From: Acidobacteriota bacterium
GTDB taxonomy: Bacteria; Acidobacteriota; Terriglobia; Terriglobales; Acidobacteriaceae
Length of the DNA: 64,000 nt
Assembly: GCA_018268755.1 (NCBI GenBank)
Contig: JAFDVW010000028.1
Coordinates: 2,070 to 66,069 of the forward strand
Direction of reading: 5' to 3'
Part shown: positions 90-31,613 of the stretch, in pieces
Layout of the letters: each line of letters begins with the position of its first letter
How positions within the stretch are numbered: position 1 is the first letter of the stretch
The notes under the pieces: generated by a model
What the model was told of the DNA's origin: nothing
Database searches by the model: none
Seen by the model: the letters and a program-made list of their open reading frames with translations, nothing else
Position numbers and translations under genes: made by a program

Positions 90-167
90 AATTTGGTAAT
101 CGGATAATTTGGTAATTCAAAATCAATTGCGCGGGTCTGATTTACAAAATTACCCGATTACCAAATT
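90..167. repeat. Inverted repeat of AT-rich heptads between rpsG and fusA
   Basis: AATTTGGTAATCGG at 90-103 is repeated exactly as its complement CCGATTACCAAATT at 154-167, a 14-bp perfect inverted repeat with a 50-base gap. Each arm is made of roughly 7-base units (AATTTGG, TAATCGG, GTAATTT) that continue past the perfect part. The element begins 11 bases downstream of the rpsG stop and ends about 34 bases before the fusA start. It is strikingly AT-rich compared with the genes. It may fold in the rpsG-fusA transcript; its function is unknown. Confidence 0.7.
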
Positions 168-177
168 TTCAAATCTT

Positions 178-4504: not shown

Positions 4505-4553
4505 GTTGGCCGTTGGCCGATAGCCATTGGCCGTTAGCTGTTGGCCGATAGAC
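4505..4553 (+). repeat. Heptad tandem repeat (7 units) between convergent genes
   Basis: Seven consecutive 7-base units read GTTGGCC, GTTGGCC, GATAGCC, ATTGGCC, GTTAGCT, GTTGGCC, GATAGAC. They fit the consensus RWTRGCY and fill much of the spacer between the lipoprotein stop (4496) and the nusB stop (4606). The same consensus recurs at 5038-5163 and 31586-31613. Confidence 0.85.
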
Positions 4554-4605: not shown

Positions 4606-5028
4606 CTAAGCTTGTGGTTTGGCTTCGAGGTCTTTGCCCACGCTATCGAGCACGCCGTTGATGAATTGCACCGACTCGGGCGCGGAGAATTTGCGGGCAA
4701 TTTCAATGGCTTCGTTGATGACGACTGCGTGCGGGGTATGGGGGAAGGCCAGAAATTCGGCGACGGCGGCGCGCAAAATGTTGCGGTCGACGGCGGCCAT
4801 GCGCTCCATGCGCCAATGCTGGGCATGATCTTCGATCAGCTTGTCCACTTCCTGGCTGCGCGCGGTGGCCACGCGAAATAAATCTTCCGCAAAACCCTGC
4901 ACGTCTTCGCTGACATCGCCCCGCTCCCGCCAGAAGGTCTTGCGCACATCCTCGGCCGACTGCTTCCCCATATCGGCTTGAAACAGCATTTGCAGCGTCA
5001 ATTCGCGAGATTTGCGGCGTGTGCCCAT
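4606..5028 (-). CDS. nusB: Transcription antitermination factor NusB
   Basis: This 140-residue all-helical protein has the expected length for NusB, which binds boxA RNA with NusE/S10 and prevents premature termination of rRNA transcription. Typical segments are GTRRKSRELTLQMLFQAD at the N terminus, the central MAAVDRNILRAAVAEF and HAVVINEAIEIARKFS, and the end FINGVLDSVGKDL. It lies downstream of ribH, a common pairing. There is no good Shine-Dalgarno sequence before its ATG. Instead the upstream spacer is a double array of heptad repeats that ends about ten bases before the start, which may affect its translation. Confidence 0.96.
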   Translation of the reverse strand: MGTRRKSRELTLQMLFQADMGKQSAEDVRKTFWRERGDVSEDVQGFAEDLFRVATARSQEVDKLIEDHAQHWRMERMAAVDRNILRAAVAEFLAFPHTPHAVVINEAIEIARKFSAPESVQFINGVLDSVGKDLEAKPQA

Positions 5029-5037
5029 AATTTCGTC

Positions 5038-5163
5038 GTTGGTCGTTGGCGATTAGCCGTTAGCTATTAGCCGTTGGCTATTGGCCGTTAGCTGGCGGAA
5101 TGAGTCTGCGCTAGCGGCTAACGACCAACAGCTAAAGGCTAAAGGCCAACGGCTAATGGCCAG
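5038..5163. repeat. Two opposed arrays of heptad repeats in the ribH-nusB spacer
   Basis: Positions 5038-5093 hold eight 7-base units of consensus RTTRGCY (GTTGGTC, GTTGGCG, ATTAGCC, GTTAGCT, ATTAGCC, GTTGGCT, ATTGGCC, GTTAGCT). Positions 5116-5157 hold six complementary units (GGCTAAC, GACCAAC, AGCTAAA, GGCTAAA, GGCCAAC, GGCTAAT), followed by a partial one. The two arrays can pair in many registers into a long hairpin in the ribH-nusB transcript. The array nearest nusB ends ten bases before the nusB ATG. Confidence 0.9.
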
Positions 5164-5216
5164 TTTTAGTGTACAGGAAGATGCTTTGAAATTTGCACGA
5201 TGCGCGGAGGCCGCGG

Positions 5217-5834
5217 TCAGCGCTTGCGTTTGGCGCGCAAGGATTTTTTTCGCTCTGCAGCTTGAGGCTTTTGCTTTTTTCCAACCGCCAACGACGATCG
5301 GCCCACAGCGGTTTTCTTGCCCAGGATGGCCTTGGTCAGGTTCGCCATTTCGATAGCGGCGAGCGCAGCTTCCAATCCCTTGTTGCCCATCTTCAGGCCG
5401 GCGCGATCGATGGCCTGCTCCAGTGTGTCGCAAGTGAGGACCCCGAAGGAATGCGGCACCCCGGTTTCCTGCGCCGCTTGGCCGACCCCGCGCGCCACTT
5501 CGTTCACGATGACATCATAGTGGGCGGTATCTCCGCGCAACACGCAGCCAATACACAGGATGGCGTTGTATTTTCCCGTCTCCGCCAGAGTGCGGGCGGC
5601 GGAGGGGAGTTCAAAGGCCCCGGGCACCCGCACGATGGCGATGTCCTTCTCCTTCACGCCCGAGCGCAGAAACCCGTCGTAGGCGCTTTGCAAGAGGCGC
5701 TCGGTGATAAAAGCATTGAAGCGCGCCACCACAATGCCAAAACGCTTGCCTGCGCCGTTGAATCCACCTTCGATCGCTTTCCCGTGGAAGCGGGAGCGCT
5801 CTCTGACTCCCGTATTGCTGTTCTTTTTGGTCAT
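5217..5834 (-). CDS. ribH: 6,7-dimethyl-8-ribityllumazine synthase (riboflavin pathway)
   Basis: RibH condenses 5-amino-6-ribitylamino-uracil with dihydroxybutanone phosphate in the penultimate step of riboflavin synthesis. Family motifs are clear: VVARFN (residues about 35-40), VPGAFELP, GCVLRGDTAHYDVI with the catalytic histidine, and GVLTCDTLEQA. At 205 residues it is about 50 longer than usual. The additions are a basic N-terminal stretch of about 25 residues and a C-terminal tail of about 30, ending KKQKPQAAERKKSLRAKRKR. Family members assemble into pentamers or 60-subunit shells, so the tail could line a shell or bind nucleic acid; that is inference. It forms an apparent operon with nusB. 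Confidence 0.95.
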   Translation of the reverse strand: MTKKNSNTGVRERSRFHGKAIEGGFNGAGKRFGIVVARFNAFITERLLQSAYDGFLRSGVKEKDIAIVRVPGAFELPSAARTLAETGKYNAILCIGCVLRGDTAHYDVIVNEVARGVGQAAQETGVPHSFGVLTCDTLEQAIDRAGLKMGNKGLEAALAAIEMANLTKAILGKKTAVGRSSLAVGKKQKPQAAERKKSLRAKRKR

Positions 5835-6108: not shown

Positions 6109-6160
6109 TTCCCCTCAAAATGATCATCCGTGAAAATCCGTGCTGTTCCGTGGCCAAAAC

Positions 6161-31585: not shown

Positions 31586-31613
31586 GTTAGCTGTTAGCCT
31601 TTAGCCGTTGGCC
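31586..31613. repeat. Heptad repeat (4 units) in the mrdA-rodA spacer
   Basis: GTTAGCT, GTTAGCC, TTTAGCC, GTTGGCC in tandem, with a weaker GTGAGTC before them. It is the same consensus as at 4505-4553 and 5038-5163. It lies 17 bases upstream of the rodA start codon. Confidence 0.85.

Follow-up and report, generated by a model that had tools for sequence, protein, structure and literature searches.

Dispersed opposed heptad arrays in an acidobacterial genome, one copy of which lies in the ribH-nusB spacer

The spacer between ribH and nusB in the stretch of Acidobacteriota DNA analyzed herein (64,000 nucleotides, hereafter the window) holds one copy of a class of dispersed intergenic elements built from opposed tandem arrays of short units. 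Throughout the genome these arrays were found to be dispersed, inverted, and of fixed polarity, and comparison with relatives showed that the vocabulary of the two arms is matched locally and that, at an orthologous slot, both arms and the period of the repeat change together. An initial annotation, made on the window alone, had regarded the arrays as a feature of the nusB start codon, and this reading had to be abandoned since at least 51 sites in the genome accompany stops and starts alike.

Results

Opposed arrays in the window

As summarized in Table 1, the ribH-nusB spacer carries two arrays of RTTRGCY-type heptads facing each other across a short loop. The eight left-hand units were found just as the initial annotation had described them, while its six complementary units proved to be seven; the edge of the left array does lie close to the nusB ATG, at 9 rather than ten bases upstream, and the array extends from there away from nusB. 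The two arms can be aligned over 46 nt (5047-5092 with 5117-5162, 24 nt apart) with 83% complementarity, and the sense RNA of the spacer is predicted to fold very stably (-80.2 kcal/mol, z -6.5), in good agreement with the hairpin capacity formerly proposed. The statements that neither a protein nor a standard terminator explains the heptad period were likewise borne out: a search for intrinsic terminators (GC-rich stem plus T run) between 4480 and 5900 gave 2 matches against 2.2 expected, none of them on the nusB strand. A search against Rfam 15 gave no match at gathering score, the only hits being miRNA-like ones far under the cut-offs.

Table 1. Features of the ribH-nusB spacer and further arrays in the window
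Feature	Position	Strand	Remarks
Period-8 pair in the rpsG-fusA spacer, second arm	90-117	-	AATTACCAAATTATCCGATTACCAAATT
Period-8 pair in the rpsG-fusA spacer, first arm in the sense direction	141-170	-	GAAAATTTGGTAATCGGGTAATTTTGTAAA
One-sided array of RTTRGCY-type heptads, other side of nusB	4505-4546	+	8 bp past the stop of the neighboring gene
nusB	4606-5028	-	PF01029
Left array, 8 heptads RTTRGCY	5038-5093	+	six exact, two matching at 6/7
Loop separating the arms	5094-5115	.	
Right array, 7 heptads of a kind complementary to those on the left	5116-5164	-	three exact, four matching at 6/7
TGTACACT, box of the TGTANACT type (putative -10 element)	5168-5175	-	type seen before nusB in relatives
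ribH	5217-5834	-	PF00885; gene order ribH then nusB
Further single heptad array	31586-31613	+	

The heptad arrays before nusB are beyond chance, because the longest exact RTTRGCY run in the window comprised 6 units, compared with 1-2 units in 20 shuffles of the window, and the genome-wide controls described below were far lower as well. An assembly artefact is also unlikely, because many relatives, each assembled independently, carry similar pairs at the corresponding place. The two single arrays and the opposed period-8 pair listed in Table 1 had escaped the initial annotation; many of the spacers examined turned out to be filled by such arrays, even inside the rpsL-rpsG-fusA operon. Also in the window, a 67-bp tandem repeat (1831-2121; 4.3 copies) is located between rpsL and a Big_2-domain gene, and a short period-10 array of the ATCCGTG type (6121-6152) borders an enoyl-CoA hydratase gene.

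Dispersal, polarity, and relation to gene edges

In the genome to which the window belongs (5.36 Mb in 36 contigs), the exact two-unit pattern was found at 50 places and its reversed control at none; with three units and up to 3 mismatches, the numbers were 242 and 14, respectively. Clustering of these places gave at least 51 sites (a lower bound, taken from the matches listed), which consisted of 14 '+-' pairs, no '-+' pair, and 37 sites with one array only. Of the arrays lying no more than 30 bp from a gene edge, 38 pointed into the spacer and 2 out of it (30 stretches plus the window, one site shared by contigs C7 and C13 being entered twice), and the rule held at starts (11 versus 0) as well as at stops (27 versus 2); beyond that distance it was weak (7 versus 5). 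With polarity words that were picked for each vocabulary after inspection, 58 of 61 pairs agreed with the rule, two were tied, and the single disagreeing pair spans two different spacers. The median distance between array and gene edge was 10 bp, as against 35 bp for random placement (n = 191), and the edges lying within 15 bp of arrays were 73 stops and 35 starts, the starts being those of a purpose-written gene caller.

Octads of the CACGGAG type were present at 17 places in this genome (control 0), and GTTTCA octads, frequent in relatives, were not found in it by the pattern used. On contig C16 (29389-29946), four CACGGAG octad arrays follow each other at a spacing of 179 bp, two of them having a reverse partner 47 bp further along, so that the opposed unit itself looks tandemly duplicated.

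Known mobile repeats were considered against these data. The loops of 8 pairs in this genome showed no mutual similarity, and the loop of the ribH-nusB pair resembled none of those of other pairs, by which a MITE with a conserved interior was rejected, and none of the 8 loci for a Y1 transposase (PF01797) had an array in its flanks of about 1.5 kb, by which a REPIN driven by a RAYT was rejected. Inspection by eye found no REP palindrome with a GTAG or CGTC tag, the arms consisting of tandem heptads instead. The order of units in the two arms was not matched beyond the common vocabulary (61 pairs, mean z 0.65, one pair with p < 0.05), and exact copying from arm to arm was thus dismissed. A classical MITE, a RAYT-driven REPIN, and exact arm copying are hence unsupported, because the loops are unrelated, the link to a transposase is missing, and the unit order is unmatched.

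Vocabularies and local matching of arms in relatives

The closest named relatives by NusB were metagenome-assembled genomes of Acidobacteriales/Terriglobales, of which 80 were used; the 80 loci (L061-L140) all center on nusB, so that array density in them does not represent the genome-wide mean, and the pairs they contain are not independent. In 163 kb of spacer from these relatives, self-similarity runs numbered 110 at lag 7, 53 at lag 8, and 25 at lag 10, compared with 1 to 4 each at lags 5, 6, 11, and 13. The units comprised TTAGCYN, TCAGCYN, TTCGTCG, GTTTCAAR, ATTGAGTN/GTAATTTG, and CACGGAGR, together with a 10-mer unit containing CACGGATT.

Among 92 pairs of neighboring arrays less than 300 bp apart, 53 were inverted, 2 direct, and 37 unmatched, whereas the 94 pairs at least 1000 bp apart gave 1 inverted, 5 direct, and 88 unmatched; random pairs of arrays across loci gave 26, 19, and 349, respectively. 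The match between arms is therefore local and not a genome-wide dialect, given 53 of 92 inverted pairs at close range and 1 of 94 at long range. In a search across the phylum, 51 of 149 genomes had a match among the matches listed, a figure that offers no clean contrast since the reversed control was abundant in some genomes, probably through other vocabularies. Thirteen '+-' pairs and, by eye, no '-+' pair were seen in other families among the matches listed. Reversed-control counts of 75, 44, 50, and 140 in genomes G145, G182, G217, and G237, respectively, point to further heptad vocabularies in other families, and the reversed control was likewise abundant in G055 in a separate pattern search.

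Change of both arms at orthologous slots

At the ribH-nusB slot of relatives, the arms often lie around a box of the TGTANACT type, one of them inside the 3' end of ribH and its partner immediately before nusB. A box of this type was recognized in 69 of 77 relatives, at some 20-135 nt from the nusB start on its upstream side, and possibly represents the -10 element of a nusB promoter. In the arm-matching test, which comprised these 69 loci and omitted the 8 of 77 loci without a recognized box and the window itself, the inverted arm score was 13.1 within species and 9.5 between species, and 5000 permutations reached at most 11.0. The own partner was nevertheless the best or tied-best right arm in only 7 of the 69 species. 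The initial annotation had named absence of the array from close relatives, together with normal nusB translation, as evidence against its reading, and the relatives largely provide it: arms are missing in many relatives with an intact nusB, and an own-arm score of at least 13 was reached in inverted orientation in just 29 of 69 loci, as against 2 of 69 in direct orientation.

In other species, the room between the rpsG stop and the fusA leader is taken by heptad pairs, by octad pairs, or by palindromes of other kinds, or is nearly absent. Automatic classification of 70 loci gave 11 heptad, 10 octad, 7 unclear, and 42 without a pair, a significant inverted repeat being detected in 28 of the 70. 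With hand-set states included, the 70 loci comprised 18 heptad pairs, 12 octad pairs, and 40 others, 9 of the 30 heptad or octad states having been set by hand (heptad in L063, L066, L069, L088, L089, L109, and L132; octad in L084 and L125). The rpsG tree requires at least 9 switches between heptad and octad at this slot, and neighbors in the tree differ in state in the cases of L118/L124, L088/L113, and L084/L085. These observations showed that, at the orthologous rpsG-fusA slot, the two arms change jointly, period included.

The loops were compared at the ribH-nusB locus. In the pairs L117-L139 and L129-L139, the nusB genes are 92-93% identical, the vocabularies differ, and the loops are 38% and 47% identical, close to the identity of random loops (39%, sd 14); loops of one-vocabulary pairs among L117, L118, L124, and L129 are 54-73% identical. 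This contrast, modest as it is, favors replacement of the whole cassette. A tally of indel lengths in related spacers was set aside, as its settings passed unrelated spacers as close (396 pairs).

Dispersed palindrome-like sequences of other kinds, TCCTTCG..CAGGATGACA and TTCCTCGCT..GGAATGACA, were found at these slots too, reaching even into coding tails, namely in the rpsG-fusA spacers of L078, L081, L085, L095, L096, and L133 and in the ribH tails of many loci of the Sulfotelmatobacter type.

Absence of a Shine-Dalgarno motif before nusB

The initial annotation was right that nusB has no ordinary ribosome binding site, there being no Shine-Dalgarno motif in ACGACGAAATTATG, which precedes the gene. 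Such a motif is, however, also lacking in 75 of 77 relatives with ribH adjoining nusB, although 307 of 676 predicted genes in the same loci carry one. All of the 40 scored loci without matched arms lack it, and both of the loci that do carry it have arms. The missing motif is thus a trait of nusB in this group, independent of the array, because it is equally absent from 40 of 40 loci devoid of matched arms. A device acting at the nusB start codon was accordingly discarded as a candidate, with arrays hugging stops and starts alike and the motif absent in 75 of 77 relatives regardless.

Discussion

Relation to known repeats

Dispersed extragenic repeats with many inverted copies, some of them just past stops, are familiar from REP, BIME, and REPIN sequences (PMC3733652, PMC12306157), which the arrays resemble in these respects; as far as the accessible parts of those papers show, they differ in that the stems here are tandem 7-8-mers of varying vocabulary and not a single conserved palindrome. 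The closest likeness was found in Geobacter metallireducens, for which tandem hepta- and octanucleotides in many copies, in part as opposite-strand pairs at variable distance (classes 1 and 2), were described in 2009 as sites of a putative global regulator (classes 1-3, function unproven), suggested for IHF/HU, and called unique to that genome (PMC2700814). Their consensuses are GTTGCTYN, TCTCCGTS[Y], and MTYCTGA, with 3-5 units per site, compared with up to 8 units of likewise 7-8 nt here (PMC2700814). The CACGGAGA octads (CACGGAG type) present in our genome are complementary to TCTCCGTS, and MTYCTGA contains the complement of the TCAG core of relatives, but the TTRGCY heptad of the window is not among the consensuses printed there (PMC2700814). 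The pairing is also as in G. metallireducens, yet 37 of the at least 51 sites from the matches listed here show one array only; moreover, that organism belongs to another phylum, and the accessible sections of the report neither compare orthologous slots nor mention a change of period or a rule for gene edges (PMC2700814).

The STRR of cyanobacteria are tandem heptamers and group with the period-7 intergenic repeats. The heptameric repeats GGGAATC of Xanthomonas and GGGGATT of Nostoc are similar in period, many copies, intergenic location, and nearness to the neighboring ORF; as described, they are G-rich and quadruplex-forming, unlike the arrays here, which lack G-runs and form inverted pairs (PMC4692102). 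The literature covered, outside of which all preprints and most subscription journals fell, contained no description of opposed arrays in Acidobacteriota, nor of two arms changing in concert. As far as we have seen, the kind was noticed in 2009 in G. metallireducens and is apparently still unexplained, and the variant reported here is new.

Origin of the arrays

The best explanation, to which we assign about an even chance, is a DNA-level inverted-array element, REP/BIME-like, for which a putative writer would bring about the turnover of whole cassettes in vacant slots between genes. Such an element would consist of two degenerate tandem arrays of 7-mers (elsewhere 8- or 10-mers), inverted around an unconserved loop, and would occupy free intergenic room up to the gene edges; its arrays may form a hairpin or cruciform at the DNA level. 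The whole cassette would be gained, lost, and replaced at slots where insertion is harmless, and its arms would afterwards drift, with slippage adding or removing units. Spread or exchange by recombination in the manner of a REP/BIME repeat, via the putative writer, would most likely be responsible. The limited vocabularies and the fixed polarity suggest that something recognizes or spreads the arrays. Several observations run against parts of this explanation: the unit order is not matched between arms, which speaks against exact copying from one arm to the other; the own partner is seldom the best right arm (7 of 69 species); the loop of each site is unique, which speaks against a classical transposon; none of the 8 Y1-transposase loci is flanked by an array; and in several relatives the arms straddle the widely common TGTANACT box, so that not all pairs are clearly a single inserted unit.

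An origin in place, in which polymerase slippage makes the units and template switching homogenizes the arms with neither mobility nor function, would fit the period close to 7-8 nt, the local matching of arms, the enrichment in spacers and dispensable tails such as the RibH C-terminus, and the lack of strand bias in mismatches or folding. Template switching is known to homogenize inverted repeats (quasipalindromes; PMC8604942) and would match inverted arms locally as seen here, but by itself it gives neither a shared vocabulary nor a fixed polarity, and the exact unit order is not copied in our arrays. Slippage alone does not account for the common vocabularies and polarity either; the vocabulary is limited and the polarity fixed across sites and families, and the repeats described for G. 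metallireducens have a similar vocabulary (PMC2700814). We therefore regard an origin in place as unlikely. A role of the arrays as paired binding sites of a nucleoid protein or a global regulator, by analogy with the IHF/HU proposal for G. metallireducens, would agree with the fixed polarity, the inverted pairs of variable spacing, and the many copies, and the same architecture is seen in that organism (PMC2700814). However, a single protein would hardly tolerate periods of 7, 8, and 10 and several vocabularies, with 7 and 8 swapping at one slot, and the IHF/HU idea was itself only a suggestion as worded in that report (PMC2700814), so that this explanation appears improbable.

A hairpin in the mRNA, in which base pairing of the arms within the ribH-nusB transcript would govern the translation of nusB or the processing or stability of the mRNA, might be expected from the predicted stability of the sense spacer RNA, from the position of the right arm in relatives, often 0-6 bp away from the nusB ATG, and from the pairs inside the rpsL-rpsG-fusA operon. 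The antisense strand of the window spacer is nonetheless predicted to fold equally well (-89 kcal/mol, z -5.4), the predicted fold leaves about 20 nt preceding the AUG outside the arm-to-arm stem, pairs are present between divergent and convergent genes too, and many relatives are devoid of arms. Mismatches between the arms in sense RNA of tandem-gene pairs comprised 47 G-U and 65 A-C (p 0.11, in the wrong direction), and at 28 rpsG-fusA slots the sense strand was the more stable in 18 by energy and in 14 by z (Wilcoxon p 0.58 and 0.88, respectively). With no excess of G-U over A-C and no folding preference for the sense strand, there is no sign of selection for an mRNA hairpin, which has a small chance of being the reason for the arrays; an effect on mRNA may still exist, and under the cassette explanation a hairpin placed past the ribH stop and upstream of nusB would arise incidentally and not be the reason for the element.

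Implications

In the literature covered, the arrays have no accepted name or mechanism. That they represent an undescribed class of elements, defined by architecture (opposed arrays of fixed polarity) and not by sequence, in which several vocabularies and periods of 7, 8, and 10 are interchangeable in both arms together and which extends over at least two phyla, is a tentative proposal that we hold to be rather doubtful at present. If true, it would imply a dedicated writer, such as a transposition, reverse-transcription, or recombination system, exchanging whole cassettes between gene slots. The joint rewriting of both arms, including the repeat length, provides a sharp and testable signature of array origin, and a single copy, for example that before nusB, should not be read as a regulator of the next gene.
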